Below are positions 9,395-53,984 of a DNA stretch of 64,000 bases, one piece after another; positions within the stretch are counted from its first letter, which is position 1, and every line of letters starts with the position of its first letter. Source of the stretch: Vulcanimicrobiota bacterium (lineage in GTDB: Bacteria > Vulcanimicrobiota > Xenobia > Xenobiales > JADMJV01); NCBI GenBank assembly GCA_019637395.1, contig JAHBVR010000005.1, positions 129,312 through 193,311 of the forward strand, written 5' to 3'. The translations under genes and the position numbers were made by a program. Under the pieces are notes generated by a model. The model made no database searches. It was not told where the DNA came from and was given only the letters and a program-made list of their open reading frames with translations.

Positions 9395-9544
9395 GGAAAT
9401 CTCTTTTCCTCAGCGGGCAGGCGCTCCTTGCCAAGAGGGAAAATGTCACAGACGGTCAACATCAATGCTGTCACATTGAGGTGGTCTAGGATGCCCGAAA
9501 AAGGCTCAGGACTTCCCAGAATGTGATGCTTGGAGGACGTGACG

Positions 9545-12500
9545 GTGTCGGGTGCGCTACAAATGGAAGCTAATGCCGCTTTTGAGCAGGGCGACTGGGA
9601 TCAAGCCATTGAGGGCTATACCAAGGCTTTAGAAGCCGATCCGAACGATGCCGAGTCCTGCCGTCGCCTGGCCGATACTCGGGCCATTCGCGGCAACCTC
9701 AACCTGGTTGTCGATACCTACCTTCAGTTGATGGATATCCTGTGCGCCCAGAGCAATTATCAAGCCGCGCTCCAGGTGGCTGACTGGGTCAAGTGCATCA
9801 AGCCCGAGTCCGACGCGGTCCGCGCCAAGACCGTCGATATTTATATCAAGCTGGGCGACATGGCCAAAGTCGTGCAGCACTCTATGGAATTGGCCCGTCT
9901 CTACATCGAACTGGGACAGGGCGAAAGCGCTATCTCTCTGCTTATCGAGGCTCAGAAGGCCGATCCGGGCAATCTGGAAATCGGTCTGGAGCTGGCCGAG
10001 ACCTACGTCAGTCAGGGACATATGCAAGAAGGCGCCAAGCAGTACCGGCATATGGGTCACGTGCTGGTCGATCAGGGAAATCTGGAACGCGCCTCGGAAG
10101 CCTTCCGCCGCCTCAAATTGATCGCTCCGGACGATGCCGGCATTTTGCTTACGCTGGGCAATATTTACGTGGAGCTCAAGCGCTACAATGAAGCCGAGCA
10201 GGAATATCGTTCCATCCTGCGCCACAACCTCAATCACGAGGAAGCTCTGTTGGCGCTGGGTCGCGTCTGTCAGCTCAAGTGTCAATGGCGCGACGCCATC
10301 CTCGCCTTCAATCGAATCCTCAACATTAACCCTGGCGAAGTCACGGCCAAAGAGCGCCTGGGTGAGCTCTATCAGCAGCAGAGTCTCATTCAGGACGCCA
10401 TCAAGTACTATTTGTTGGCCGCTCAGGCCTATTTTGAAATCGAAGAGCGCGATCGCGCCATTCGCCTCTATCAGATCGTGTTGGGCCTGGATCCCTCTCA
10501 TCCTACGGCTGTCCGGGAACTGACCAATCTCGAAGCACCGCTGGTGGGCATTCGCAACGAAGCCATCGAGCCTCCCACGCCGCGCCCCGAGAAGGTTTCC
10601 GCTAGCGAGGCGCCGGCTGCGGGTGCGCGTGAAGGTGGCTCTCTGGCTGCCGGTCTGGTGGCCAGAGGGGAAGAGGGCGGCGGTGGCGGCCGCAGCGGTA
10701 TGCTGCGGCGTACGGCCGGTGCGGCCAAGACTCCCGGTAAAGCTCCTTTGGCCGGCAAACCCAAGCTGGGTGAAGGCAAGCCGCAACTCGGCGGCGGTGG
10801 CGCTACCAAACAAGGGCTTTTCCGTTCGGGTGCGGGCGGAGGCGGTGATAAACCGATGCTCAGTCGCCGTGGTGCTAAAAAGGTCGAAGATACCATTGAA
10901 GACTCGGTGGGAGCGTCTTCCAATGAAATGGTCATGCCGGCCGCTCCCCAGCGGTCCATGATGGCTCCTTCGGGTGGGGAGGGACTGGGTTCTCCGCCTG
11001 ATGACGCCGCCTTTGCCCCCGCGGGCGGCCACGACCCCTTCGCCGCCGCCGGTAGCCACGATCCTTTTGCCTCGGCCCACACGGTGGATCCGTTCGCCGC
11101 TGCGGAGAGCGGCGGCTTCGGCGTGGCCGCAGACCCCTTTGCTGGCGAGGGAGATCCTTTTGCTGCGGCTGACCCCTTCGCGGTCGGCAACGATCCCTTC
11201 GCCGCTGCTGGGGATCCCTTCGCCGCTGCTGGGGATCCCTTCGCCGCTGCCGGCGATCCCTTCGCCCCCGGCAACGATCCTTTCGCTGCCCAGGCCGCGC
11301 CAGTCGATCCTTTTGCCGCTCAGGCGGACCCTTTCGCCAACGCGGCGGATCCCTTCGCGAGCGCCCCAGCGGCGGGTGATCCCTTCGCCGGCCAGTCCGC
11401 TCATGATCCCTTTGCGGCGAGTTCCGCGGACCCATTCGCGGCGCCCGCCGAGCCGTTCGCTGTTCAGGCGGACCCTTTCGCTTCCGCGGGCCAAGACCCG
11501 TTTGCAGCCCCTGCTCACGACCCGTTTGCGGCTCCGGCGCACGACCCGTTCGGAGCTGCGGCCTCCGACTCGTTGGCCGCTTCGGCCCAAAACCCGTTCG
11601 GCACACCGGCCGCGTCTCCGGCCAATCACGATCCGTTCGCTGCCTCGGCCGACCCTTTTGGATCTCCAGCGGCAGATCCATTCGCAGTCCCGGCTGCTGA
11701 CCCGTTTGGCGCTCCCGCCCAGGACCCTTTTGCTGCCCCTGCGGACCCGTTCGCTGCGACCGCCGACCCCTTTGCGGCTCCGGCCGCCGATTCGTTTGCC
11801 GCCCCCGCTCAGGACCCGTTCGCCGCAACCAACGACCCGTTCGGGGCCCCGGCCAGCGACCCGTTTGCGGCTCCGGCTGCCGACCCGTTCGGCGCCCCCG
11901 CCCAGGACCCGTTCGCCGCGACCAGCGACCCGTTTGCGGCTCCGGCTGCCGACCCGTTCGGCGCCCCTGCCCAGGACCCGTTCGCCGCGACCAGCGACCC
12001 GTTTGCGGCTCCGGCTGCCGACCCGTTCGGCGCCCCCGCTCAGGATCCGTTCGCCGCGAGCACCGACCCGTTTGCGGCTCCGGCTGCCGACCCGTTCGGC
12101 GCCCCCGCTCAGGATCCGTTCGCCACGACCGCCGACCCGTTTGCGGCTCCGGCCGTGGACCCATTCGGCGCCCCCGCTCAGGACCCGTTTGCCGCGACCA
12201 GCGACCCGTTTGGTGCCCCGGCCAACGACCCGTTTGCGTCTCCGGCTGCGGACCCGTTTGCCGCGACCGCCGACCCGTTTGCGGCCCCGGCTGCGGACCC
12301 GTTTGCCGCGACCGCCGACCCGTTTGCGGCTCCGGCTGCGGACCCGTTCGCCGCGACCGCCGACCCGTTTGCGGCTCCGGCTGCCGACCCATTCGGCGCC
12401 CCCGCTCAGGATCCGTTCGCCACGACCGCTGACCCGTTTGCGGCTCCGGCTGCGGACCCGTTTGCCGCTCCAACTGTTGACCCGTTCGCCGCGACCGCCG

Positions 12501-15500
12501 ATCCCTTTGCAGCGCCGGCAGCCGATCCGTTTGGCGCCCCCGCCCAGGACCCGTTCGCGGCCCCGGCTGCGGACCCGTTTGCCGCGACTGCCGATCCCTT
12601 TGCAGCGCCGGCCGCCGACCCGTTCGGCGCCCCCGCCCAGGACCCGTTCGCGGCCCCGGCTGCGGACCCGTTTGCCGCGACTGCCGATCCCTTTGCGGCC
12701 CCGGCCGCCGATCCGTTCGCAGCCACCTCTGACCCGTTCGCGGCTCCTCCCGCGGCGGCGGTCGATCCCTTTGCCGCCCCTGCCGGGGACCCGTTTGCGG
12801 CTCCGGCTGCCGACCCGTTCGCCGCTCCGCCTCAATCCGACCCCTTTGGCGCTTCCGGCGAGCCTTTCAGCTCTGCCGTCTCTGACCCGTTCGCCTCGGC
12901 TCCCGATCCGTTTGGCACCAGTCCCGAATCCTATGCCGCCGCTCCCGCTCAGGATCCTTTCGCTGCGCCGCCCGCCAGCGATCCATTTGCCTCCTCTCCG
13001 GTCCAGGACCCGTTTGCCGTGGCCGCGCCCAGTCTGTCACTGCCCGGCGATCCGTTCAGCGCTCCGCCGACCCTGGAACCGCCTCCCAGCGCGGAGCCAT
13101 TCTCGGCGGCCAGCCTCCAGGTCGGCGATCCCTTTGCCGCCCCGGTGGCGGCGGCTCCACTGGACCCGTTCGGCGCCCCCCCGGCCCTCGACCCCTTCGC
13201 CGCTCCGGTCGCCCTCGATCCGTTTGCTTCTACTCTGTCAGCCCCGCCCCAACTGGAGCCGATAGCTGAGCCCGTGAGTGCCGGATTGCAGGCTCCGCCC
13301 GCCTTCGACCCTTTCGCTCCCACCATGGAGGCTCAGCCGCTACTGGCCCCACCGCCCGACCTCGGGCCGCCTCCTTCGCTGGAGTTGTTCTCAGCTCCGC
13401 CGGCGGAAGCCGCTCCCTCCTTGGAAGAGTCTCCCTTCGCCCTGAGGGTGGAGGCTCCGCTGGCTCCGCCGGCTTTTGATTCGGGCGAAGCTCCCTCGCT
13501 GAACCTGGGAGCGCCCGAAGCCGATCGCGGCGGCGCCCCGGTCGAATCGACCTTCGGTGCCTCGCCTTCGCACTTCTTTGATAAACTCAAGCAGGGCGCC
13601 CAGGCCGAGGCCTCACCCCCCGCCGCTGGTGGGGGAGCTGATTCACTGGCCGAGCGGATTGCTCGTCGTAATAAGTCCAAACAAGAGGAGATCGAAGTCC
13701 CCGGCGATCTGCCCATCCTGGAGCTCCCTCCCTTACAGGCTGACCTGCAGCCGCTCCCGCCACCTCCGGCGGCGGCCTGGGAGGAGCCGGTGGTGGCGCC
13801 CGTGGCCTTCGCTCCGGTCATCGAGGCCAGCAGCGAGCCTATCGCGTCGGAACGGACTCATTTCGAGCCGGTACCGGCCGAGCCGCCCGCTTTCCAGGAG
13901 TCCATGCAGCTCGAGACCCCGCCCGTGGTCGAGCCGGAGCCCGAACCCGAGCCCGAGCCCGAGCCGGAACCCGAGCCCGAGCCGCTGCCTCCGGAGCCGA
14001 TTTTCGGCCGCCCGCGTAGCAGCTTCTCGGTCGAGTCGGAAGTTTCGGGGGACCAGGTGCAGCAGGCTCGCGAAGTCCGCGAGAAGAACGAAGGAGCGGA
14101 CGTGGCCTCCTTGATTCGGGCTTATCGGCGCTCCATCGAGGAGAATCCGGACAACCTGTTGCTGCGCACCAACCTGGCTGACCTGCATCTCAACTACGGA
14201 CTGCTGGAAGACGCGGTGGTGCAATACCGTCAGATCATCAAGCGCAATCCCAACAGCGTAGGTCTGCACCACCGCCTGATTCAGGCCCACCTGTGGAACG
14301 ATAATTACGAAGAGGCCGCGGCCACTCTGATGGAGCTTTCCCAGTTGCATGTCAGCCGGGGAGAACTACAGGATGCGCTCGACGGTATGCAGACGGTGCT
14401 CAGTCTGGATCCTCACCACTTCCAGGCGCGCCGCCAGTTGGTCGACCTGTGTTCGGCCCAGGGCGAAGCGCGCCTGGCCACCCATCACCTGCGTCAACTG
14501 GCCGAAGCCGCCCTCACTAAGGGCAGCGTAGAGGAGGCCATCGAGGCCTTCTCCCGCCTTATGGAAATCAGCGACGATCCCAGCTTCCAGGACCGCCTGG
14601 CTCAAGTCTACGAGAGTCAGGGCCGCACCGAGGAAGCGCTTCACCACTATCGCCAACTGGTAGAACGTTATTGGCAGGCCGAGAAGTGGGAAGAAGCCGC
14701 CTCGGCCACCGAGCGCATCGTCACCTTGATGCCGGAAGACTTGACGGTGCGGCGCAGCCTCACCGAACTCTATCAGCGTCTCGGCCTGACCGAACGCGTG
14801 TTGGAGCAGCGTTACCAGTTGGGTTGTCACTACTTCAGCGTGGGCGATGTCAACGCCGCCGCCGAGTTGCTCGAGCAAGTCCTGCATGAGCAGCCGAGCC
14901 ACAACCAGGCCCGCCGCGTTCTGCTGGACGTCTACCTGGCTCAGGGACGGATCGAGGAGGCTCTGAAGCAGTCGGAGTCGCTGACGGCCCACTACATTCA
15001 GGAAAAAGACCACCAGAACGCCATCGATCTCTACCTGAAGCTGGTCGAAGCCCAGCCCGAAAACGCCGAGTTGCGCAAGAACCTCATTCGTTTCTACGAG
15101 ATGGCCGAGGATTCCGAGCAGGCGTCCGAGCAATGGCTGGCTCTGGCTCAGCTTTACTCTCGCTTCGAATCCTGGGAAGAATCCGTGGGTGCCTATCAGA
15201 AGGTGTTGGAGCTGGACGAGAATCGCTCCGAGATCCACTACCAGTTGGCCCGCATCTACCTGGAGAAGCTGGGCGACCCGGCTCAGGCTCTGCAAGAGTT
15301 CCACCGCGTTTATGAACTCGATCCGGGCAATACCCAGGCGATGGGCAAGTACATCCGCATCCTGTTGCGCCTGAGCAAAGCCGACAGCGCCGCCGAAGTG
15401 TTGCGCCGCCTGGCTGAAGTCAACCCGGATGCGGCCGAAGTCAAGGATTCGGTGATGAAGGACTTCAAAGGCCGTATCGAGAGTGAGCCGGGCGATCTGC

Positions 15501-15904
15501 GCGCCCGCTTCGTCTTCGGTGAACTCTCCTACCACCTGGGCGAGCTGGACCTGGCCATCGAGCAGTTTCAGCAGACTCGCCGCGATCGGGCCTTCGAACT
15601 CAAGTCCTACAACATGCTGGGGCAATGCTTCGCCGAAAAGCACGGTTTCAACATGCTCGACCTGGCCATCCGCCAGTTCCGCCGCGGTCTGGAGACCCCC
15701 GGTTTCTCTGAACAAGAGTACCTGGAGCTACGCTATAACCTGGCCATGCTGCAGTACAAGAACAACCGTCTGCAAGAAGCCCTGCAGGAGCTCAAAGACT
15801 GCTACGCGGTGGACATCGCCTACCGCGACGTGCGCGAATGGATTCGTCGTATCGAGAACGAGATCGCCGGTGGGCCCAAGGTCAACCGCGGACCGCAGAA
15901 GTAA
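9545..15904 (+). CDS. Giant TPR protein with about 80 DPF motifs in a disordered centre
   Basis: About 2,119 residues. I start it at GTG 9545, eight bases after GGAGG, rather than at the upstream TTG (9530), which lies at the ribosome site itself. Three parts are visible. Residues about 1-330 are TPR repeats (W/Y-x2-A-x3-Y style helices such as GDWDQAIEGYTKALEADPN). Residues about 360-1500 are disordered: a Gly/Lys-rich linker, then about 80 copies of DPF in contexts such as DPFAAPA and DPFGAPAQ, then Pro/Glu-rich sequence with an EP dipeptide run. Residues about 1510-2119 are a second TPR solenoid. No signal peptide is seen, so it is probably cytoplasmic. It lies 17 bases upstream of another giant TPR gene. 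Inference: a scaffold in which two TPR arrays are joined by a multivalent linker. Confidence 0.9.
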   Translation: MSGALQMEANAAFEQGDWDQAIEGYTKALEADPNDAESCRRLADTRAIRGNLNLVVDTYLQLMDILCAQSNYQAALQVADWVKCIKPESDAVRAKTVDIYIKLGDMAKVVQHSMELARLYIELGQGESAISLLIEAQKADPGNLEIGLELAETYVSQGHMQEGAKQYRHMGHVLVDQGNLERASEAFRRLKLIAPDDAGILLTLGNIYVELKRYNEAEQEYRSILRHNLNHEEALLALGRVCQLKCQWRDAILAFNRILNINPGEVTAKERLGELYQQQSLIQDAIKYYLLAAQAYFEIEERDRAIRLYQIVLGLDPSHPTAVRELTNLEAPLVGIRNEAIEPPTPRPEKVSASEAPAAGAREGGSLAAGLVARGEEGGGGGRSGMLRRTAGAAKTPGKAPLAGKPKLGEGKPQLGGGGATKQGLFRSGAGGGGDKPMLSRRGAKKVEDTIEDSVGASSNEMVMPAAPQRSMMAPSGGEGLGSPPDDAAFAPAGGHDPFAAAGSHDPFASAHTVDPFAAAESGGFGVAADPFAGEGDPFAAADPFAVGNDPFAAAGDPFAAAGDPFAAAGDPFAPGNDPFAAQAAPVDPFAAQADPFANAADPFASAPAAGDPFAGQSAHDPFAASSADPFAAPAEPFAVQADPFASAGQDPFAAPAHDPFAAPAHDPFGAAASDSLAASAQNPFGTPAASPANHDPFAASADPFGSPAADPFAVPAADPFGAPAQDPFAAPADPFAATADPFAAPAADSFAAPAQDPFAATNDPFGAPASDPFAAPAADPFGAPAQDPFAATSDPFAAPAADPFGAPAQDPFAATSDPFAAPAADPFGAPAQDPFAASTDPFAAPAADPFGAPAQDPFATTADPFAAPAVDPFGAPAQDPFAATSDPFGAPANDPFASPAADPFAATADPFAAPAADPFAATADPFAAPAADPFAATADPFAAPAADPFGAPAQDPFATTADPFAAPAADPFAAPTVDPFAATADPFAAPAADPFGAPAQDPFAAPAADPFAATADPFAAPAADPFGAPAQDPFAAPAADPFAATADPFAAPAADPFAATSDPFAAPPAAAVDPFAAPAGDPFAAPAADPFAAPPQSDPFGASGEPFSSAVSDPFASAPDPFGTSPESYAAAPAQDPFAAPPASDPFASSPVQDPFAVAAPSLSLPGDPFSAPPTLEPPPSAEPFSAASLQVGDPFAAPVAAAPLDPFGAPPALDPFAAPVALDPFASTLSAPPQLEPIAEPVSAGLQAPPAFDPFAPTMEAQPLLAPPPDLGPPPSLELFSAPPAEAAPSLEESPFALRVEAPLAPPAFDSGEAPSLNLGAPEADRGGAPVESTFGASPSHFFDKLKQGAQAEASPPAAGGGADSLAERIARRNKSKQEEIEVPGDLPILELPPLQADLQPLPPPPAAAWEEPVVAPVAFAPVIEASSEPIASERTHFEPVPAEPPAFQESMQLETPPVVEPEPEPEPEPEPEPEPEPLPPEPIFGRPRSSFSVESEVSGDQVQQAREVREKNEGADVASLIRAYRRSIEENPDNLLLRTNLADLHLNYGLLEDAVVQYRQIIKRNPNSVGLHHRLIQAHLWNDNYEEAAATLMELSQLHVSRGELQDALDGMQTVLSLDPHHFQARRQLVDLCSAQGEARLATHHLRQLAEAALTKGSVEEAIEAFSRLMEISDDPSFQDRLAQVYESQGRTEEALHHYRQLVERYWQAEKWEEAASATERIVTLMPEDLTVRRSLTELYQRLGLTERVLEQRYQLGCHYFSVGDVNAAAELLEQVLHEQPSHNQARRVLLDVYLAQGRIEEALKQSESLTAHYIQEKDHQNAIDLYLKLVEAQPENAELRKNLIRFYEMAEDSEQASEQWLALAQLYSRFESWEESVGAYQKVLELDENRSEIHYQLARIYLEKLGDPAQALQEFHRVYELDPGNTQAMGKYIRILLRLSKADSAAEVLRRLAEVNPDAAEVKDSVMKDFKGRIESEPGDLRARFVFGELSYHLGELDLAIEQFQQTRRDRAFELKSYNMLGQCFAEKHGFNMLDLAIRQFRRGLETPGFSEQEYLELRYNLAMLQYKNNRLQEALQELKDCYAVDIAYRDVREWIRRIENEIAGGPKVNRGPQK
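11030..13325 (+). repeat. Tandem DPF-encoding repeat tract inside the giant TPR gene
   Basis: About 2.3 kb of imperfect tandem repeats encoding DPFAAPA, DPFGAPAQ and DPFAAT units (roughly 7-14 residues, 21-42 bases). The unit around 11,880-12,130 (ADPFGAPAQDPFAAT-S followed by DPFAAP) is almost identical from copy to copy, which indicates recent expansion. The strong codon bias opens very long frames on the opposite strand and in other plus frames; these are by-products of the repeat. Confidence 0.93.
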
Positions 15905-15921: not shown

Positions 15922-18900
15922 ATGTCTGACCAGCAAATTATTCAACAGTGGCTTACTTACGCCAGCAAACTGGCCCAGCAGGGCCGTCTCGACGAAGCGA
16001 TCCAGGCGCTGCTCAAAGTGGTCGAAGAGGACCCGCAGAACCTTGAGGTGCGCAACGCCATCATCAAGTTCGCTTCCCAAAAGGGCGACTACACGGTGGT
16101 GGTTTATCAGCACATGGATTGTGCCGAACTTTACGTTTTGGCGGGCGACAAAAAATCGGCCATGGAGCGCTACGAAACCATCCTGCGCCTGGAAGAAACC
16201 GTCCAACTGGGTCCGCACAGCCGCGCTGACGCGGTCATGCAGGTTCGCCAGTTGGTGGCCACCGTCAAGCCGGAAATCTACCTGCGCATCGGCGAGTTCC
16301 GCCTGGAGCACAATCAGGTCGACCAGGCGCTGCAGTACCTGAAGAAGTCTCAGGAACTGAAGCCGGGTATCTGGGATACTCACATGGCCCTGGGCCGCGC
16401 TTTCATGATCAAGGAAGCTTACAAGGACGCCATCGGTGAGTTTCAAGAGGTGCTCCGACTGACTCAGGAAGACGGCCAGGAAGCTCAGGCCCAGGCTTAT
16501 GAAATGCTGGGCGAGGTGTTCGTGCGCCAGGGCCGTCCCCCGGCCGCCACCATCACCTGGTTCGATCGCGCCGCCCTGCTTTACGTGCAAAAGCAGATGT
16601 TCAACGAGGCCTGCCGGGCTTACGGCCGCATCGTCGAGGTGGACGGAACCAACAAGGAAGCCCTCAACAGCCTGGGCGAGCTCTACAGTCGCCTCAATAT
16701 GAAGGAAAAGGCCGTCCAGGTCTACAGCCGGCTGGCTGATATGTTCGAAAAAGAGGGAACGGCTCTCGATAAGGTCATTCAGCTCTACGAAACCATCATC
16801 CAGTTGGAGCCGCAGAATCGGCCCGTCGGCGAAAAGCTGGTCGGCATCTACGCCAATATTCTGCAGCGTAGTCCCAACAACGTCTCCATCCGCGGCCGTT
16901 TGGTCGAACATCTGGTCCGCCAGCAGCGCAACCAGGAATTACCTCCTCACTATCTGGCCATGGCCCAATATCAGATGGAGCGCGGCATGACCGACGAGGC
17001 CGTCAAGGCCCTGCGCCGTCTGCTGGAGATCGATAGCCAGTATCTGGAAGCCCGCGAAATGCTGGGCGATCTCTATCTCAAGCGCGAGATGAAGACCGAA
17101 GCCAAAGACGAGTTCCAGCAGGTGATCAAGATCTATCGCTCTCAGGGCAAAGAAGAAGCCGCTCTGGAGCTGCAGCAGAAAATGGTGCAGCTTTTCCCCG
17201 AGGATATCGAGCTGCCTTATCAGGTCGCCGTTGGTTTGCGGGACCGCGGGGACTTCGCGGGAGCGCTCCACGAACTCGACCGGCTGGTAACTCAACGTCC
17301 CGATGACCTGCGCGCCCTGGTCTATCGCGGCGAATGCCTGCTGGCCCTGGAGCGCCACAGCGAGGCCGCCCAGAACTACGAAATGATTCTGCGTTTGGAA
17401 CCTGATCAGCTAGAAGTGCGGCGGGCCGCTATCGCTGCCTACCTGCAACTCAACCAACCGCAATACGCCGCCCACCATCTGCATCAATTGCCCCAGGATG
17501 ACCCTAAGAAGGGGGCACTGCAGCGCCGCCTTATCGCCCAGCTCCTGGAGGCCCGCCAACTGGACGTGGCCGAACAGGAAATGGCCCACCTGCCCAGCGA
17601 CGACGAGCAGTTGCTGTCGATGCGCAAGGAGTTGGTCAAACTCCACCTCGACGCCGGCAATCTGGAAAAAGCCTTTGAAGGGCTTCCCCAGATTCCGCGT
17701 TCGGAGCGGGAACGCAACAGCCTGGTCACGCGCCTCTTAGAAATTCCCCTGAGCCAGGGCGACCTGGAAACGGCCGCCCGCACCATTCATCGCCTGCCCG
17801 AGGACGATCCGCTCAAGGTCACCTTCCACCGCCGCCTCATCACCGCCTACCTGGAAGCTGGCCGGCTTAACGACGCCGCTCACGACGTGGCCCGCCTGCC
17901 TCAGGATGATGAAGGACGCTCCCGGCTCATCAGCCAGGTCATCAGCGGCTACCTGAACGCTCATCAATATCGCGAAGCAGCCGACCAGATCTATCGCCTG
18001 AACGACACCGATCCGTTGCGCAACTCCTTTATGGGCCAGCTCATCGAGGCGCTGATCGGCGTCGGGGAATTGGAACGGGCCGCCCAGGAAGTGAGCCGGT
18101 TGGGGGAGAGCGATGAAATCAAGCCGCGCTATCATCGCCGCCTGATTCAGGCCTACCTGAACGCCAGCCGTTTTGAGGAAGCCGAAAAATCCATCGTCAC
18201 CTTAAACGACGCCGACCCGGAAAAGCGCTCGTTCTTGCGCCTGCTGGTGCAGAAATTCTTGACCATGGGCCAGTTCGACCGGGTGCGCGACCTGGTGGCT
18301 CATATGCCCGAGGATATGGAGGAGCGCTCCCAATACCTCGACGGTCTGGTGCACAACTACCTCGACCTCGGCGAATTAGGCAAGGCGCGCAGCCAGGTTT
18401 TCTCCATGGCCGACATGGCCTCGCGGGCCGGCAACCACCTGGAAGCCGAGCGCCTCTATCGAGAAATCCTGGCCTATCAGCCGTCGGACGTCGACATCCG
18501 CCTGCACCTGTGCCAGGCCCTGGCTTCGCAGGGCCAGGCGGAGCGGGCCCGCGAAGGGATGCTGGTGCTGGCCGGGCGTTTCCATCGCGAAGGCAACGCC
18601 ACCTCAGCGGCTGACGTCTACTCGCGCATGCTCGACCTGGATAGCCATAATCTCAACGCTCGCTACCGCCTGGGCAGCCTCTGGGCGGAACAGGGCCAGA
18701 CCGCTCAGGCGCTGGAGCAGTTCGCGCAACTGGCCAAGGTCTACCTCGAGCAGAACCTGCCCGAGGTCGCCCAACGAGTTCTCAAAAAAATCCTGGAGCT
18801 CGATCCCAAGGATATCGACCATCGCCGTCAGGCCATTCGCCTGCTCATTCGCAACCTGCGCTTCGAAGAAGCCACCGAGCACTACCGCATCCTGCTGGGT

Positions 18901-20292
18901 ATCCACCTGGAGCGCGGCGAAGTGGATGAAGCCCTGGAATGCGTCAAGGAAATCGTCAACCTGCAGCCGCTCAACCTGGAGTTGCGCCAGCAACTGGGTG
19001 CTCTTTTCCTGAAAGCCGGCTTTCTCGAGCACGGCCAGAGCCTGCTCGAATCGCTGGCCGAAGACTGCCGGGAAAAGCGCGATACCGACCGGATGTTGCG
19101 CGTGCTCAATACCCTGGCCGAAAGCTTTGCCGCCAACGAACAGTGGGAAACCTCGCTGGAATATCGCGAGCGCATCGCCGATGTCATTCGCGACACCGAA
19201 GGCTGGCCCAAGGCCCAGGCGGCTTACCTGGAAATCGTGCTCGGTTATCTGGAGCACTCCCAGAAGGAAAGTGCCGACGCCATCTTCGTCAAGTTGGTGG
19301 ACGGCTTCTTCCGTTACAAGGTCGTCCTGGAAGGTGTCGAGCAACTGGAAATCCTGCAGCAGCAACTGGCCGACATGGGCAAGCCGACCATGGCCTTGAG
19401 TGTGCGCGAACGCATCGCCTCAATTCTGGAGCGCCAGGACCAGTGGGATCGCGCCATTCAGACCTTGCTGGAGATTTCCCACAGTTACCTGGTGCTGCAA
19501 GAAGTGGAGCGGGGCGTGGAATTCCTGCGCCGCGCCGCTGATCAGGCTCTCACTCACGACCGCACCGAGCAGGGCATCGAGATTCTCTTCCAGTTGGCCG
19601 ACAAGCTGATTCAGCACCGTTCGCTGGAGCACGCTCGTCCCGTGCTCGACGAATTGCTGCGTATCGCCCAGGATAACCCGGCCTTCCTGGAGCGGGTGGG
19701 CGACGTCTTGTTCCACCAGGGCAAGTTCGAAGAAGCTCGTCCGATTTATGCCGAGGTTTTGGAGAAGGAGCCGGGACGACCCGAGTCTTTGTCTCGCGTG
19801 GCCATCATTTACGCCAAGGAGTCGCGCTGGGAAGACGCCGCCGATATCGCCCGCCAGATCTTCTCCAAGGGCCTGGTCTCCAAGATTATTCGCGAATATC
19901 GGGCCGTTACCGGCTTCCGTCCGGGTGACGCCGGTTCTCATCTGCGCTTGGGCCAGTTCTACCAGCAGCTCGGCTTCGTCGAAGAGGCCATCATCGAGTA
20001 CGGATTGGCCGCCAAGGACCCGTCCAAGTTCCTGATGGCCTGCAATCAACTGGCCCTCTGCTTTTCCCAGCAGGGTTACAGCGATCTGGCCGTGCGCCAG
20101 TTCCAAATTGCCCTGGAAACCCCCGGTTACCAGGACGAGGAGCAACTCGACCTGCGTTACTTCCTGGGCCGTACCTTAGAAGATTTGGGCCGCTACAAGG
20201 AAGCCATGCACGCCTACCAGGAGTGTTTCGTGGTCGATATCCGCTATCGAGATGTGGCTCAACGTATTGAAGGTCTCGGGGATAAAATGTAG
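15922..20292 (+). CDS. Giant TPR-repeat protein
   Basis: A 1,456-residue protein made almost wholly of tetratricopeptide-type helix pairs, recognisable by repeated patterns such as GRLDEAIQALLKVVEEDP, NQVDQALQYLKKSQELKP and GQTAQALEQFAQLAKVYLE. Between about residues 500 and 830 the repeats switch to a shorter variant with a LP-x-DD(E/P) pattern (RLPEDDPLK, RLPQDDEGR, HLPSDDEQ), possibly a distinct superhelix. No signal peptide or catalytic domain is seen. It begins 17 bases after the DPF/TPR gene and ends at a probable terminator, so the two form one transcription unit. The C-terminal helices of both proteins share matching phrases (AFELKSYNMLGQCF versus FLMACNQLALCF; LETPGF/Y; ALQELKDCYAVDIAYRDV versus AMHAYQECFVVDIRYRDV), so the two arose partly by duplication. 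Probably a scaffold. Confidence 0.93.
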   Translation: MSDQQIIQQWLTYASKLAQQGRLDEAIQALLKVVEEDPQNLEVRNAIIKFASQKGDYTVVVYQHMDCAELYVLAGDKKSAMERYETILRLEETVQLGPHSRADAVMQVRQLVATVKPEIYLRIGEFRLEHNQVDQALQYLKKSQELKPGIWDTHMALGRAFMIKEAYKDAIGEFQEVLRLTQEDGQEAQAQAYEMLGEVFVRQGRPPAATITWFDRAALLYVQKQMFNEACRAYGRIVEVDGTNKEALNSLGELYSRLNMKEKAVQVYSRLADMFEKEGTALDKVIQLYETIIQLEPQNRPVGEKLVGIYANILQRSPNNVSIRGRLVEHLVRQQRNQELPPHYLAMAQYQMERGMTDEAVKALRRLLEIDSQYLEAREMLGDLYLKREMKTEAKDEFQQVIKIYRSQGKEEAALELQQKMVQLFPEDIELPYQVAVGLRDRGDFAGALHELDRLVTQRPDDLRALVYRGECLLALERHSEAAQNYEMILRLEPDQLEVRRAAIAAYLQLNQPQYAAHHLHQLPQDDPKKGALQRRLIAQLLEARQLDVAEQEMAHLPSDDEQLLSMRKELVKLHLDAGNLEKAFEGLPQIPRSERERNSLVTRLLEIPLSQGDLETAARTIHRLPEDDPLKVTFHRRLITAYLEAGRLNDAAHDVARLPQDDEGRSRLISQVISGYLNAHQYREAADQIYRLNDTDPLRNSFMGQLIEALIGVGELERAAQEVSRLGESDEIKPRYHRRLIQAYLNASRFEEAEKSIVTLNDADPEKRSFLRLLVQKFLTMGQFDRVRDLVAHMPEDMEERSQYLDGLVHNYLDLGELGKARSQVFSMADMASRAGNHLEAERLYREILAYQPSDVDIRLHLCQALASQGQAERAREGMLVLAGRFHREGNATSAADVYSRMLDLDSHNLNARYRLGSLWAEQGQTAQALEQFAQLAKVYLEQNLPEVAQRVLKKILELDPKDIDHRRQAIRLLIRNLRFEEATEHYRILLGIHLERGEVDEALECVKEIVNLQPLNLELRQQLGALFLKAGFLEHGQSLLESLAEDCREKRDTDRMLRVLNTLAESFAANEQWETSLEYRERIADVIRDTEGWPKAQAAYLEIVLGYLEHSQKESADAIFVKLVDGFFRYKVVLEGVEQLEILQQQLADMGKPTMALSVRERIASILERQDQWDRAIQTLLEISHSYLVLQEVERGVEFLRRAADQALTHDRTEQGIEILFQLADKLIQHRSLEHARPVLDELLRIAQDNPAFLERVGDVLFHQGKFEEARPIYAEVLEKEPGRPESLSRVAIIYAKESRWEDAADIARQIFSKGLVSKIIREYRAVTGFRPGDAGSHLRLGQFYQQLGFVEEAIIEYGLAAKDPSKFLMACNQLALCFSQQGYSDLAVRQFQIALETPGYQDEEQLDLRYFLGRTLEDLGRYKEAMHAYQECFVVDIRYRDVAQRIEGLGDKM

Positions 20293-44655: not shown

Positions 44656-46659
44656 ATGCGCGTAGGGGACTCAGGAGCGATTCAAGATCTGCGAAGCACG
44701 GGACGGGCCCGCCGGTTGCAGGAGGCTCGGCTCGAGCAGAACCGCCAGTTAAGTCCGGCCCAGGTGGCCGGACTGCAGAAGTTCTTCCAGCAGAACCTGA
44801 ACGATATCAGCGGACTGCGGAGCGGGGCGGTGGGGAATTTGCAGCGCTTGAGTGAGGCCGATCTGGCCAGGCTCTTCCCCGACCAGGCCGATTGGCAGGC
44901 GGTGCTGCGGGCCACCGCTCCCAACCGCAACGACAACGGCGACGCCCGCCAGTTGCGCAGCGATTATCGAAACTTGCTGCGCGATTTGCGCCGCGAGGAA
45001 ACGCGGGCTTCCAACAGTCAACAGTCGACCCGCACCACCGCCGACGGAGAAGTGCGCAAAAGTTCCTGGCGTGCCGATGATGCCGATTACTTTCGCGTGG
45101 ACGTGGGCGATCAGACGCGCTTGGAGCGAATGGGCACGACCGTGCGCCGCACCCGGAGCCAGCTGGGTTCGACTCAGGTCGAGCAGTTCCGGCTCGACGA
45201 GGAGGGTAACCCCAGTCACGAATTGCTGTTAGCATATGACGGTTCCATTCCCCAGCGAGTCATCGCCAAACCGGATGGCAGCGCCGAGTTGCAACAGCTC
45301 ATCGGGCACGACGCCGAGGGCAATCCAATTCATCAGGACCAGCAACTGGCGCCCGGCGGCAAACACGCGGAAACGAAACTGGACAGTCCCTGGTGGCGGG
45401 AAAGAAATGCTGCCGAGGATTGGGAGGACGAGACCACCCCGGTGCGGTTTCATCCGCCCGAAGCACCGCGCGAACCCGGGATCGGAGGCCTGAGCCCAAA
45501 TCAGACGCGGGTGGTCGCCAGGCATTACCAGGAAGAATTCGCCGGCGACCTGCGCGCCGACGCCAGGCGCGATCCCAAGGTCGGCGAGGCGATCGCGGCT
45601 TTTACCAAGCGCGTGGGAGAACCGGCGCCGGCCATTCCCGCCAACCAGGTACGCACCGATACCAAAGACTTCTGCTCCATCATGGACCGCCTTTTCGACA
45701 AGCTCGACAAGGATCACGACGGTAAGATCAATATGTCGGAGCTCAAAGCCGCCATGCATGACGCCGGCTTCAAGGGCGCCGACGCGGCCGCCGTGGCCAC
45801 CGTCTACCTGGCCGTGCAGAGTGAAAAGGCGACCAGGAACGGGTTTACCAAGGACCAGTTGGCCGGGCTCAAAACCGGGGAGGCGGGCGCCAAACTGAAC
45901 GACTTCATGGGCGGCATTTTTTCTCTGGAAAAAGACCGGCTCAACGGAATCAGCCGTCAAGTCTTCAACGGCGAGCCGGATCCCAATAAGGTGAAGCAAG
46001 GTTCATTCGGCACCTGCTACTTCATCTCGGCGCTGGTGGCTAAAGCCCAGGCCGACCCCGACGGTGTGAAAAAGATGATCAAGGACAACGGCAACGGCAC
46101 TTTTACGGTCTCCTTTCCTGGAGCCAAAAGCGTGACCGTCAATGCGCCCACCGACACCGAATTGCTGATTCACGCCGACACCGGCGACAACGGAATGTGG
46201 GTCACCATCATTGAAAAAGCCTTCGGCAAGATGAAGAATGACGATGCCTTTTTCTCCAAGACCGAATCGATGGACAAAGTCGAGGGAGATACGCTCGCGG
46301 CCGGAATCAATCCGCTCACCAGAAAAGGCGTCGACACCGATGAGCTCATCTTCACTTTGGAAAGCACCACCCGCTCGAAAATCCAGAAGGCGCTGGCCAA
46401 TCACAAAATGATCACCGCCGCCATCAACAAGGACCTCATTTTTACCAGTGATGCCCAGGACGGCCACGCCTACACCATCATCGCCTTCGATCCCAAGACC
46501 GACCGCGTCACCATACGCAACCCCTGGGGCCAGGGCGGCCAGCGGGCTGAGCCCCAGAATTCGGATGGAACCGCTAAAGATGGCAAGATGGACGGTGTCT
46601 TTCAGTTGACGATTAAAGAATTTGACAGCATGTTCAGCACCATCGCCTACGAGGAATAG
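44656..46659 (+). CDS. EF-hand plus calpain-like cysteine protease
   Basis: 667 residues without a signal peptide. The first 300 are helical then Asp/Arg/Gly-rich. An EF-hand loop lies at about 351-362 (DKDHDGKINMSE), a textbook 12-residue Ca2+ site. The C-terminal 230 residues match the calpain (C2) catalytic core: Cys454 in KQGSFGTCYFISAL, His604 in GHAYTIIAFD and Asn622 in IRNPWG. Together these suggest a Ca2+-responsive protease. Calpain-like proteins are known in several bacterial phyla and are rare overall. It could act on an external substrate; the non-Sec leader is part of a recurring theme here. It converges with the transglycosylase-like gene. Confidence 0.9.
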   Translation: MRVGDSGAIQDLRSTGRARRLQEARLEQNRQLSPAQVAGLQKFFQQNLNDISGLRSGAVGNLQRLSEADLARLFPDQADWQAVLRATAPNRNDNGDARQLRSDYRNLLRDLRREETRASNSQQSTRTTADGEVRKSSWRADDADYFRVDVGDQTRLERMGTTVRRTRSQLGSTQVEQFRLDEEGNPSHELLLAYDGSIPQRVIAKPDGSAELQQLIGHDAEGNPIHQDQQLAPGGKHAETKLDSPWWRERNAAEDWEDETTPVRFHPPEAPREPGIGGLSPNQTRVVARHYQEEFAGDLRADARRDPKVGEAIAAFTKRVGEPAPAIPANQVRTDTKDFCSIMDRLFDKLDKDHDGKINMSELKAAMHDAGFKGADAAAVATVYLAVQSEKATRNGFTKDQLAGLKTGEAGAKLNDFMGGIFSLEKDRLNGISRQVFNGEPDPNKVKQGSFGTCYFISALVAKAQADPDGVKKMIKDNGNGTFTVSFPGAKSVTVNAPTDTELLIHADTGDNGMWVTIIEKAFGKMKNDDAFFSKTESMDKVEGDTLAAGINPLTRKGVDTDELIFTLESTTRSKIQKALANHKMITAAINKDLIFTSDAQDGHAYTIIAFDPKTDRVTIRNPWGQGGQRAEPQNSDGTAKDGKMDGVFQLTIKEFDSMFSTIAYEE

Positions 46660-49845: not shown

Positions 49846-51537
49846 GTGCTCTTTACCCACCTCGGACGCAAACGTGCGCTCATCCACCTGAGCCTCACGC
49901 TCAGCTTGTTGCTGCTGGCCTTGAGCGCCTGGGCCTTGGCCAGGGCTTTTCGCCTCCACCAATCCACTGACATTCAAAGCCTGGAGGGCTCCTCCGCCGA
50001 CTTCTTACATCAGCTCTGCCCGGGTTCCCACCTGGAGGTGGTGCAGGAATTCCCGCTGCACCTGGTCGTTACCGCCGATACCGATCCGGCCACCCTGGAA
50101 CAGTTGAAGCCGGCTTTGACCTATTTCTACAACCTCGAGGAGTCCCGAGGGGAGCAATTGCTGGTTGTACCTGGGCAAGCGCCATTCTACTGGGTAGACC
50201 ATGGCCTTCTGGCCGTGGCCATCACCCTGGCCGGGTTGCTGCTGACATTGCCCGGGCTTATCTATCTTCTACCGCGACGCCGGATCCAAGTCGAACGTCC
50301 GGTGCTGAGCAAAGTGATTCTCACCTTGACTCTGGCCGCCACGGTCTCCTTCGGCCTGGTCCGGCACGGCCGGCCACAGCCGAGTTTAGCTCGCTGGCTG
50401 GAAGACGATCTGGGCGGGCTGACCAACAACCGTTCGGTGGTGGTGGCGGTGCTCGAACGCGACGGGCGGATCCGTGCTTTGGCCGCGGCTGATCCAGGTC
50501 TGCATCCGCTCATCCAGGTGCGGGCCAAAACCCTGGGTCTTGACTCTATCTTGTGCCTGGCTCCGAGCAGTCGTCAGGTCCGGCTCTGGCCCTGGGCGGG
50601 CCTGGCTCTACTGGTGCTGCCGGCGGGAGCCTGTTGGTCCCGAAGAGCCCGGCGGGCAGCGCCGCTGACCCCGGTAAAGATCAGGCCGGCTCCTCCGATT
50701 CGTGATTCGCTGCGCGTTGAAGAATTACAGATAGATATCGGACGAGGGCTTTTGGGCCTGATCGATCCTGACCAGGGCGCCGAATTGCTGGAACGCCTGT
50801 CCTCGATGCGCCGCCACATAGCCCTGGAACTGGGTGTGCTCGTTCCCCACCTGCACTTTCGCGACCAGTTCGGCATCAAGCCTAACCGTTATCAGATCTA
50901 TGTTCGGGGAACCGAGGTGGCCAGCGGGGAAGTTTGGGTCAATCAATTCCTGGCAATCGGGCCTGAGTACAAACTGAAAAACATGCGCGGCACCAGAGTC
51001 GTCGACCCGACCTGCGGTATGCCGGGTGTCTGGATCTCACCCGAGCAACGCGGTGACGCCGAGCGTCTCGGCTGTATGCTCTTTGACTCCGTTTCGGTGA
51101 TGGCTACCCATATCAACGAAACAATTCGCCGTTTCAGCGCCGATTTGCTCACTTTTCAGATGGCCAACGAGCGGTTGGAGAACTCCAACTTGAGCGTCGT
51201 GCTGGCGCAACTGGACGGGCGCGGAATCAACCGCATCCGTCTCTGGAAGACGCTGCGCGCACTACTCCAAGAACGGGTCAGCATCCGAGACTTGCAGTGT
51301 ATCTGTGAGGGCTTGCTGGCCGTGTCTCACCTGGGCCTGGATGATGAAGGTCTGCTGGATTACGCTCGCCGTGCCCTCGGGAAATATAAGAACAACGAAG
51401 ATTTGCAACACGATGTCTTGGCTGGCCAAAGCCTGGAAGAAGAGACTCGACGATTGGAGCAGTCTGCCGCGAGAATCGAAGCTCGCCGCCAGCGGATTCG
51501 CCGCCGGCGGGCGCTGCTTCTCGAGCGGGGCGAATAG
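49846..51537 (+). CDS. Orphan FlhA/SctV-type export-gate cytoplasmic domain on a novel membrane module
   Basis: 563 residues from GTG 49846, with AGGAGG 5 bases upstream. Residues about 287-520 match the FlhA/SctV (type III export gate) cytoplasmic domain in order: LLGLIDPDQGAELLERLSSMRR, ALELGVLVPHLHFRDQ, PNRYQIYVRGTEVASGE, LAIGPEYKLKNMRG, VVDPTCGMPGVWI, SVMATHINETIRRFSADLLTFQ and ERVSIRDLQCICEGLLAV. The N-terminus differs from FlhA: only about three or four membrane helices (near 8-30, 120-143, 150-168 and 243-260) with two soluble loops, and no eight-helix FHIPEP domain. The C-terminus is a basic coiled coil. Followed 44 bases on by a giant coiled-coil gene. In T3SS the domain forms a nonameric ring that receives chaperone-substrate complexes. 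The homology is clear; the function without a T3SS in view is unknown. Confidence 0.85.
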   Translation: MLFTHLGRKRALIHLSLTLSLLLLALSAWALARAFRLHQSTDIQSLEGSSADFLHQLCPGSHLEVVQEFPLHLVVTADTDPATLEQLKPALTYFYNLEESRGEQLLVVPGQAPFYWVDHGLLAVAITLAGLLLTLPGLIYLLPRRRIQVERPVLSKVILTLTLAATVSFGLVRHGRPQPSLARWLEDDLGGLTNNRSVVVAVLERDGRIRALAAADPGLHPLIQVRAKTLGLDSILCLAPSSRQVRLWPWAGLALLVLPAGACWSRRARRAAPLTPVKIRPAPPIRDSLRVEELQIDIGRGLLGLIDPDQGAELLERLSSMRRHIALELGVLVPHLHFRDQFGIKPNRYQIYVRGTEVASGEVWVNQFLAIGPEYKLKNMRGTRVVDPTCGMPGVWISPEQRGDAERLGCMLFDSVSVMATHINETIRRFSADLLTFQMANERLENSNLSVVLAQLDGRGINRIRLWKTLRALLQERVSIRDLQCICEGLLAVSHLGLDDEGLLDYARRALGKYKNNEDLQHDVLAGQSLEEETRRLEQSAARIEARRQRIRRRRALLLERGE

Positions 51538-51581
51538 ACTTTTCCCCGCACAGGGCCGGCCCCGGGAGGAAGCCATGGCCT

Positions 51582-53984
51582 GTGTCGAAATTTTGTTCGT
51601 TCATGCAAGACGATTACTGGCACTGGAGAGTCCAGGCGGCCGCTCGGCGCGAACTCTTGAAGCTCGCCCAGATGCTGGGCGGCTCGGCTTGCTTCAGCCT
51701 TTCCCAGGTGGTGGGCTCGCAATCGCTGGTGCAGGTGCTGGGGCATCTGAATCAGCCCCCGCTGGCCGATCCCCTGCACCAGGTCGTGCAACGGCTGGGC
51801 AAGCTGGAAGCCCTGCCTTCCGAATTGCTGGCTGCCGAAGAAACGATCCTGCCGGTCCAGCAACAGCGGCGTCTGGCTGAACTGGTGGTGCAGTTGCTGG
51901 CGCTGGCCGTTTCGGCGCTGGAGTATCGTGAGGAATTGCTACAACGGTTGCGCGGCGAGTTGTCGCAAGTGGGAGAGGAGCTGGAAGAAGCTCGCCGATT
52001 CGAGCCGATGGAGATCGTGGCCGCGGAACCAGCCCAACTGCCGGCTCTGACCGGTCTCTTTTCGCAGCAGATCGAGTGGGCGCAAGCACAGCTACGTTCT
52101 CAAGAACTTCGCCTGGATGAGGCCCAAAAACAAGCCCGCAGCCTGGAATACTCGCTGCTTGACAAGCAGAACGAGATGCGTTTTCAAGAATTCAAGCTCA
52201 CCCGCCAACGCCAGCAGTTGCGCAAACTCAGCCAGCGTTCCGACCGGTTGCGCCAGGTCAGCCGGGAACTGCGCCAGTCGCAACGTCAAATGGCCACGGA
52301 ACGCGAAGAACAGAAATTGGAGATCAAGTCCTTACAGAGCAAGGCCGAAGGTCTTCAGCAAGAACTCGAGCAGAAGCGGCGCAGCCTGCAGGATCGCGAA
52401 CTGAATCTCCAGTCGGTGCGCCAGGAACTGCAGAAAAGTCTGCAATCCATCGAGGTCTTCCAACGCGAGAGCGAGGCCATGCGGCAGCACGTGCAGGTGT
52501 CCGAGCGAGTTCCGCTGCTGGAGCGCAAGCTGGCCAGGGCCAGGGAGACGATTCAAAAGCTTCAGGAGCAATCAAGCCTGGCGCTACAACAGCGCGACCA
52601 GCAGTTGACCGCCCTCGACGAAGAGGTGGTGCGCTTGCGCCAGCGGTTGTTGGATCAGGCCCGCGAATTGGCCTCCGCCGACATCGGCGGGCTGCGCCAG
52701 GCCCTGGCCCTGGCGCAAGAGGGGGAGGCCGCCGCTCGCCAGGAATTACTGGAGGCGCGGGCTTCCGAATCGAGCCGCCACGAGTTGCTGCAAGCCCAAC
52801 TGGGCGAGGCCCAAGAACAGTTGCGCCAACTGCGCTCTCAGCACAGCCAGCAGATAACCGAACTGGCACAGAAGCATCAGGAGGAGTTGGTGGCTCTGCG
52901 CGAGGAGGCCGAGGGTCGCGAGCAGCTCTTGTTGGCCCGCCTGCAGCAGGACTACGAGCAGCAACAGGCCCAACTCGAGGAAGCTCGCCAACAGCACCTG
53001 TCCGAACTGGACGATTTGCGCCGCCAGCACGACCAGAGCCAGGCCGAACTGCAGGAGCAGTTTCGCGCGGACCTGGTTGCCCGGACCGAGCAGCACCAGA
53101 GTCAGCTCGAGGCCCAACGGCAGCAACTGGAGCGTGAGCACCGCCAGCAGATGGGTGCGCTGGCCGCTCGTTTACAGGAACAGGTACAACGCAAAGTCGC
53201 CCAACTGCACCTTCAGCAGCAGCAGCAATTTCAGCAGCAACTGGCCGGACTGCAGGAAGAGCACCAACAGGAGCTGGCTCGTCTGCAGCAAGAACACCAG
53301 CGCGGCCAAGAGCAGCAAAGCGCCCGGCAGGCCCAGGAATTGGAAAGGCTGGCGGAAGAGCAGCAAAGGGCGCGGGCCGAGCTGGAAGCTCAACTGTCCG
53401 AGATGCAGCAACAGCACCGCGCCCAACTGGCTCGCCTCGACCAGCAGCGCCAGAGCCAGTTGGAGTTGGTGCAGGCGCAACAGGCCATCCAACTGTCCGA
53501 GCTGGCGGGAGTTCTAGAAGAACAGCAGGCTCTGCGCGCGGACCAGGAGCGCGAGGCCGAGTCTTTACGAGACCAGCTCGCCGAGTTGCGCTCAGAGCGC
53601 GGCCAGCAAGAAGTCGAGCTGCAGCAACAGCTGCAGTCCCTGCAATCGCAGAAGGCCGACCTGGAGGCCCAGCTCGAGGCGGAGGAAGCGGCCCGGGCGC
53701 AGCTTGAGCAAAAAGCTCTGCGCCTTCAAGAAACCTCCCTGAAGTTGCGCGAAAGCGCCTCGGCTCAATTGGAGGAAAAGAATCAGCAGTTGGCCGAGAT
53801 CACCGGAAAACTCGAACAAACCCTGGGCAAAGCCCGGGCTTTCAAGGCGCGCGCCGAGGAAGCCCGGGAACAACTGCGCCTGCAACGCCTGGAAAACGAG
53901 GAACTGCGCGAGGAACTGGAAACGCTCATTCACGCCACCGCCGAGGACTTGATGCCGGTTCAGGCTCCCAAGGAGCTATTTTGA
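51582..53984 (+). CDS. Giant Gln/Glu-rich coiled-coil protein
   Basis: 800 residues from GTG 51582, with GGGAGGA 11 bases upstream. Residues about 1-150 are a helical, non-repetitive head. From about 160 to 775 there is an almost unbroken heptad-type coiled coil of Gln, Glu, Leu and Arg (QLRKLSQRSDRLRQVSRELR, LRRQHDQSQAELQEQF), with a Q-rich QQQQQFQQQLA stretch. The C-terminus (ELEQTLGKARAFKARAEEAREQ) ends in a short polar tail. No signal or membrane helix. It follows the FlhA-like gene by 44 bases on the same strand, so a structural or filament-like partner is likely. No family is recognised. Confidence 0.85.
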   Translation: MSKFCSFMQDDYWHWRVQAAARRELLKLAQMLGGSACFSLSQVVGSQSLVQVLGHLNQPPLADPLHQVVQRLGKLEALPSELLAAEETILPVQQQRRLAELVVQLLALAVSALEYREELLQRLRGELSQVGEELEEARRFEPMEIVAAEPAQLPALTGLFSQQIEWAQAQLRSQELRLDEAQKQARSLEYSLLDKQNEMRFQEFKLTRQRQQLRKLSQRSDRLRQVSRELRQSQRQMATEREEQKLEIKSLQSKAEGLQQELEQKRRSLQDRELNLQSVRQELQKSLQSIEVFQRESEAMRQHVQVSERVPLLERKLARARETIQKLQEQSSLALQQRDQQLTALDEEVVRLRQRLLDQARELASADIGGLRQALALAQEGEAAARQELLEARASESSRHELLQAQLGEAQEQLRQLRSQHSQQITELAQKHQEELVALREEAEGREQLLLARLQQDYEQQQAQLEEARQQHLSELDDLRRQHDQSQAELQEQFRADLVARTEQHQSQLEAQRQQLEREHRQQMGALAARLQEQVQRKVAQLHLQQQQQFQQQLAGLQEEHQQELARLQQEHQRGQEQQSARQAQELERLAEEQQRARAELEAQLSEMQQQHRAQLARLDQQRQSQLELVQAQQAIQLSELAGVLEEQQALRADQEREAESLRDQLAELRSERGQQEVELQQQLQSLQSQKADLEAQLEAEEAARAQLEQKALRLQETSLKLRESASAQLEEKNQQLAEITGKLEQTLGKARAFKARAEEAREQLRLQRLENEELREELETLIHATAEDLMPVQAPKELF

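Follow-up and report, generated by a model that had tools for sequence, protein, structure and literature searches.

An FlhA cytoplasmic domain on a FliF-like membrane module in Vulcanimicrobiota

We analyzed a 64,000-nucleotide stretch (the window) of contig JAHBVR010000005.1 from a Vulcanimicrobiota bacterium (assembly GCA_019637395.1). A gene at positions 49846 to 51537 of the plus strand encodes a 563-aa membrane-anchored chimera, in which the cytoplasmic domain of the flagellar export-gate protein FlhA (FlhA-C) stands behind four transmembrane helices and two alpha-beta-beta-alpha-beta domains. FlhA normally counts among the core components of a tightly co-evolved machine and is present in few copies. 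In this clade, detached copies of its docking ring number more than a dozen and have been joined to FliF-like, FliG, and FlhB contacts. We infer, at a probability of about 0.4, that basal-body parts make up the window chimera and that it serves as a poreless, membrane-anchored FlhA-C platform, either working at the flagellar base or patterned on it. Below, G000 is the source genome, G000 to G004 are the five genomes of its genus, and C with a number is a contig.

Residues 283 to 531 (positions 50692 to 51438) were assigned to FlhA-C domains D1 to D3 by profile and structure-library matches. They cover positions 322 to 573 of the 657 in the Pfam FHIPEP profile (E = 3.5e-48), and in a PDB search the solved FlhA-C 3mix aligned with the same residues over D1 to D3 (6.5e-40). 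In NCBIfam, the FlhA model scored 179.6 bits (8.7e-53) and the SctV model 48.3 bits (5.4e-13). On these matches, the domain is FlhA-like and not SctV-like. Chance similarity was ruled out by E-values of 1e-40 to 1e-53 across the three libraries, and an SctV/injectisome origin by the difference in bits. An earlier note, made from the sequence alone, had described a block-by-block match to FlhA/SctV-C, and the significant matches in these searches bear it out.

Identity to the flagellar FlhA of the lineage is 48 to 52% over about 240 residues. D1 to D3 are what the chimera has in common with the cytoplasmic domain of FlhA (FHIPEP, flagellar export gate; PDB 3mix and 3a5i). Unlike the chimera, FlhA also has the FHIPEP channel half, domain D4, and export-apparatus neighbors. 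In the window protein, profile positions 1 to 321, the channel half, are unmatched. The match stops at position 573 of 657, and where D4 would be, the sequence has a basic, Arg/Glu-rich tail of 32 residues (532 to 563; positions 51439 to 51534). In Salmonella, FlhA-C serves as a nonameric platform for docking: chaperone-cargo complexes bind at its dimple (Asp456, Phe459, and Thr490), and FliJ binds in its D4 cleft (PMC8166844). Since D4 is absent, the window copy would be unable to bind FliJ through this cleft as FlhA does. At the dimple positions, the window copy has D/C/T and the flagellar FlhA of the lineage D/Y/T. As a separate observation, the FlhA-C part of the chimera aligned with positions 241 to 489 of the 579 in PHROG 12657 (unknown function) at 8.6e-44, and some virus-assigned protein therefore carries FlhA-C. 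A scan of viral contigs with a G003 chimera as the query found no relative.

The earlier note had seen three or four helices and two soluble loops in place of the FHIPEP membrane half. Hydropathy and an AlphaFold2 model (mean pLDDT 75) gave four helices and two domains. Together with the ORF and domain searches, they yielded the order TM1, RBM-a, TM2, TM3, RBM-b, TM4, FlhA-C, and basic tail (TM, transmembrane helix), all on the plus strand. TM1 (about residues 11 to 35, positions 49876 to 49950) was placed by hydropathy, with a model helix at residues 2 to 34. RBM-a (residues 41 to 109, positions 49966 to 50172) has an alpha-beta-beta-alpha-beta fold modeled at pLDDT of about 84 to 94 and was aligned to FliF RBM3 by hhalign. 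TM2 (residues about 116 to 141, positions 50191 to 50268) was supported by model and hydropathy; TM3 (residues 153 to 171, positions 50302 to 50358) is hydrophobic, with low model confidence. The second alpha-beta-beta-alpha-beta domain, RBM-b (residues 179 to 238, positions 50380 to 50559), and TM4 (residues 249 to 270, positions 50590 to 50655) were taken from the model. The RBM-like domains are probably periplasmic and FlhA-C cytoplasmic.

Judged by sequence profiles and layout, the membrane half looks like two successive FliF RBM3 domains, each with transmembrane helices on either side, and RBM-a appears profile-similar to the RBM3 end. When the first soluble domain was compared with FliF RBM3 in hhalign, the score was 33.5 (probability 90), and the best of 100 column shuffles reached 11.9. 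The C-terminal end of RBM-a is the FliF-like 'NLEESRGEQLLVV..PF' stretch; the first soluble domain of the module ends '..YNLEESRGEQLLVVPGQAPF', compared with '..IGIDENRGDVIQATSLPF' in FliF of the lineage. Both the TM - alpha-beta-beta-alpha-beta - TM layout and the 'RGD/RGE' ending are shared with FliF RBM3/SpoIIIAG, and the leader is kept in paralogues. The closest of these, C21:48924-51521 (865 aa) and C12:512277-514631 (784 aa), have the N-terminal module in common with the window chimera and have counterparts in G001 to G003. Several paralogues open with the leader 'STGLRTGS..', and a 393-aa ORF of G004 opens 'MATGNQTGMGTGSRAGMSAGRG'; FliF of the same organisms opens 'MATGIQTGMRTGSRAGMTAGRG'. 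Across the roughly 5000 ORFs scanned in the retrieved loci, the leader TG[LM]RTGS was confined to FliF proteins and members of the chimera families, plus one 79-aa minus-strand frame. The chimera differs from FliF in having two tandem RBM-like domains, each between helices, and neither RBM1, RBM2, the beta-collar, nor the FliG-binding C-tail of FliF was found in the 563-aa sequence and model.

The paralogues also carry a part of FliG. In C21-type proteins, FliG_N lies between TM2 and TM3 (Pfam, 1.9e-9 in G000 and 1.9e-10 in G002), at the place of a short link in the window chimera. Four paralogues of the genus (C21, G002 C95, G003 C70, and G004 C11) bear it, directly after the FliF-like module, and some paralogues with this insert are FliF-FliG-FliF-FlhA chimeras. 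FliG_N is not present in the window copy, from which it has been lost. Carriers of the C21-type chimera include a 'Candidatus Eremiobacterota bacterium' metagenome-assembled genome and isolate SZAS-1 (corresponding to G002 C95 and G003 C70). Foldseek matched a model of the C21-type N-terminal half to FliFc:FliGn 5tdy (probability 1.00), C ring 8wiw (0.93), FliF-FliG 5wuj (0.93), and MS ring 8z5v (0.94; rmsd, 1.4), with EscJ 1yj7 lower; since any one domain makes up little of the model, the E-values are weak. A membrane half unrelated to flagella was set aside in favor of a FliF-like RBM on the strength of leader, hhalign against shuffles, topology, and paralogue Foldseek matches. Thus, as the earlier note had it, a detached FlhA-C sits on a non-FlhA membrane module, but this module is FliF-like, and paralogues add FliG_N. 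An engineered FliF-FliG fusion is laboratory-made and has no FlhA-C, unlike the chimeras of this genus (PMC11481574).

The gene is also not the lone orphan for which it had been taken. In the source genome (7.66 Mb, 36 contigs), reading of the ORFs identified a complete flagellar operon on C34, with flgB, flgC, fliE, fliF, fliG, fliH, fliI, fliJ, fliK, hook genes, fliN, fliP, fliR, flhB, flhA, and fliQ. The FHIPEP search recovered this flhA, a second full-length FlhA (C21), a C1 FlhA-like ORF with a degenerate C-part, and 14 ORFs with FlhA-C-type domains alone, the window gene included. It follows that the window gene has company and that the standard gate is present. No flagellar or type III secretion system (T3SS) family besides the chimera was found among the window proteins scanned (the window being partly annotated), as the earlier note had said of SctN/R/S/T/U and flagellar genes, although the full operon lies elsewhere in the genome. 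The window gene is not accompanied by an ATPase, a FliP/Q/R-type pore, or an FlhB-type switch. A single full FlhB and two FliP are encoded in the genome, none of them near it, and the second FliP is solitary, so no separate machine is evident for which FlhA-C could form the ring proposed earlier. A second T3SS beside the second FlhA or the second FliP was rejected, as the surrounding genes show none.

Several detached flagellar parts were observed in the same genomes. The solitary FliP (264 aa; L033, G000 C10:108894-109688) lies about 8 kb from an FlhA-C plus FliG_N ORF at C10:99500, and the two are also 6 to 9 kb apart in G001 C1, G003 C11, and G004 C72. A 436-aa ORF (L028:9530-10840, minus strand; G000 C36:57529-58839) has FlhB-C fused to the second half of FlhA-C, its NPTH motif not intact; it has counterparts in G001 C45, G003 C117, and G004 C106, and an FlhB-C plus FlhA-C ORF also occurs in G033 C41. 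A solitary 518-aa FliF paralogue (L053:4393-5949, minus strand; G000 C23) has no other flagellar genes nearby, and neither does a 153-aa protein on C23 (L052:10462-10923, minus strand) whose N terminus forms a hydrophobic helix and whose end resembles RBM3. In FlhX, a stand-alone FlhB-C-like flagellar protein, the cytoplasmic domain of an export-gate protein likewise stands detached. FlhX is named among the proteins of the flagellar T3SS (PMC10746217). It is a precedent for such a domain, but it is derived from FlhB and not FlhA and is no chimera; in this lineage, FlhB-C is itself fused to FlhA-C.

Copy numbers across the phylum came from an orphan survey of 58 relatives, and presence was scored on at most seven candidates per genome. 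Orphan FlhA-C ORFs occurred in families f1 to f11, f13, and f14, with up to >10 per genome. Among the matches listed, those of f12, f15, and f16 were full-length FlhA, and G136 (f12) gave a single weak match only. Where a near-complete genome gave matches, full-length FlhA nearly always ranked first. Across 149 phylum genomes, the FliF-type membrane module joined to FlhA-C was found in this genus only, other matches covering the FliG stretch alone. FliG_N plus FlhA-C was present in G019, G020, G023, G026, G027, G033, and the C10-type proteins of the genus; FlhB-C plus FlhA-C was present in G000 C36, its counterparts in G001, G003, and G004, and, by the FlhB profile, G033. Further FlhA-C fusions involved TPR, ankyrin (also with FliG_N), HTH, C2H2 zinc finger, and DUF4419 domains. 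One DUF4419 protein with FlhA-C appended C-terminally is encoded at L135:5411-7456 (plus strand; G003 C22). We found no earlier description of the chimera family in the open literature searched; open-licence PMC papers on orphan FlhA-C, FlhA paralogues, FliF-FliG fusions, and Eremiobacterota flagella yielded nothing on it.

The window protein is an FlhA paralogue by one domain and was not recovered as FlhA, FliF, FliG, or a T3SS protein when tested as such; it is therefore a chimeric derivative of known families. With neither the FHIPEP channel half nor adjacent pore genes, the protein would itself lack a conducting part, and it is unlikely to export anything unaided. An accessory docking platform is accordingly the likeliest role, and it is best supported because fusions of FlhA-C to its basal-body neighbors (FliG_N, FlhB-C, and FliF-like RBM) recur and because orphans track full-length FlhA. 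The RBM and FliG parts would supply affinity for a ring or the basal body, and FlhA-C would offer a surface for chaperone-cargo complexes or FlhA contacts, tuning export. Having neither FliG_N nor D4, the window copy would count as a reduced member of the family.

Several observations weigh against this platform. A single FliF RBM3 HMM did not match the window copy significantly, the one match being weak (the G004 paralogue, E 0.012), and Foldseek of the window N-terminal half returned none under E 0.001, just generic KH/BON-like folds. The FliF assignment of this copy therefore rests on paralogues, profile comparison, and topology. The aromatic residue of the dimple is replaced by Cys, and no genetic link between the chimera and the flagellar operon was seen. 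FlhA-C is also fused to the TPR, ankyrin, HTH, C2H2, and DUF4419 domains listed above, which indicates uses beyond the basal body. Finally, FliF RBM3 rings have 34 subunits (PMC8786727) and FlhA-C rings nine (PMC8166844), so one polypeptide would be unable to complete both at once.

A further reading is that a lineage of Eremiobacterota has made a recombining kit of flagellar parts (FliF RBM3, FliG_N, FlhB-C, and FlhA-C), and that the single-polypeptide MS-ring/C-ring/export-gate chimeras of this genus assemble a new, flagellum-derived, poreless membrane ring complex with its own function. This reading is unlikely.

Also unlikely is a scaffold independent of the flagellum, in which a small membrane ring, as SpoIIIAG in sporulation, would bear FlhA-C as a cytoplasmic collar and the neighboring coiled coil as a filament or spacer. 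RBM-type domains do occur here together with an oligomerizing FlhA-C, and RBM3 in isolation forms rings and is related to SpoIIIAG (PMC8786727). However, minimal RBM domains without a beta-collar may form no rings, and the surroundings of the other orphans in the source genome showed no conserved set of partners. The coiled-coil gene (800 aa; positions 51582 to 53984, plus strand) starts 44 bp downstream of the chimeric gene and encodes a Q/E/L/R/A-rich protein whose N-terminal 156 aa are kept across the genus (59 to 91% identity). All five genomes of the genus have this gene, but only two have the chimera beside it (G000 and G003, 44 to 54 bp apart). G001 and G002 have the gene and its downstream neighbor without the chimera at the locus, and in G004 it sits in different surroundings. 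The adjacency behind the partnership in the earlier note is thus real, but it does not hold across the genus, which makes the partnership weak.

It is improbable that the orphans are decoys, which would regulate flagellar export by titrating FlhA linkers or the chaperone-cargo complexes of the flagellum. Many orphan FlhA-C proteins have no membrane part or carry HTH/zinc-finger domains, and the dimple is kept as D-Y-T or near in C12, C17b, one C2 copy, and C21-type members; against this, it is lost in C10, C12b, one C2 copy, and C5, besides the Cys of the window copy.

The history of the gene bears on whether it is decaying. Its counterpart G003 C103 (755 aa) lies upstream of the same coiled-coil gene and the same phosphofructokinase-like gene and keeps D4, a C2H2 zinc finger, and the stretch equivalent to FliG_N, all three lost in the window copy. 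The tree joins the two with support 80 and places orphans on long branches radiating from a near-invariant FlhA. The G020 orphans group with the FlhA of G020 itself (support 99), and the 11 sequences of the 435- to 490-aa orphan type (G000 C17), drawn from across the phylum, fall into one clade (support 100). Outside this clade, orphan births look independent of one another. Between the window copy and G003, dN/dS was about 0.37 overall and 0.31 in FlhA-C, at high divergence, with a range of about 0.31 to 0.43 for the window gene; it was about 0.27 for C21 against G002 C95, 0.08 for C10-type, 0.03 for C17-type, and about 0.04 for FlhA. Since its ORF is intact and dN/dS is well below 1, the window gene is divergent and reduced but constrained. 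The standard FlhA that the earlier note had linked to a decayed paralogue does exist, but the window copy is not dead. The least probable explanation is decay, in which flagellar genes would have been duplicated and fused many times over, leaving weakly constrained proteins that soon disappear. It accords with the long branches, the patchy presence, the domain losses relative to G003, the empty locus in G001 and G002, and dN/dS above that of FlhA; against it, the ORFs are long and intact, dN/dS is low in several types, and one type is a single clade in different lineages.

The clade is a clear case of a molecular machine dismantled and its parts reused, and it amounts to a natural domain-swap experiment on which basal-body contacts matter. 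It also provides single-chain constructs joining MS ring, C ring, and export gate, in which the 34 versus 9 symmetry mismatch poses a structural question.

Elsewhere in the window, two adjacent giant TPR proteins of 2124 and 1456 aa are encoded at positions 9530 to 15904 and 15922 to 20292. A calpain-like C2 peptidase with an EF-hand, here in a bacterial genome, is encoded at positions 44656 to 46659.

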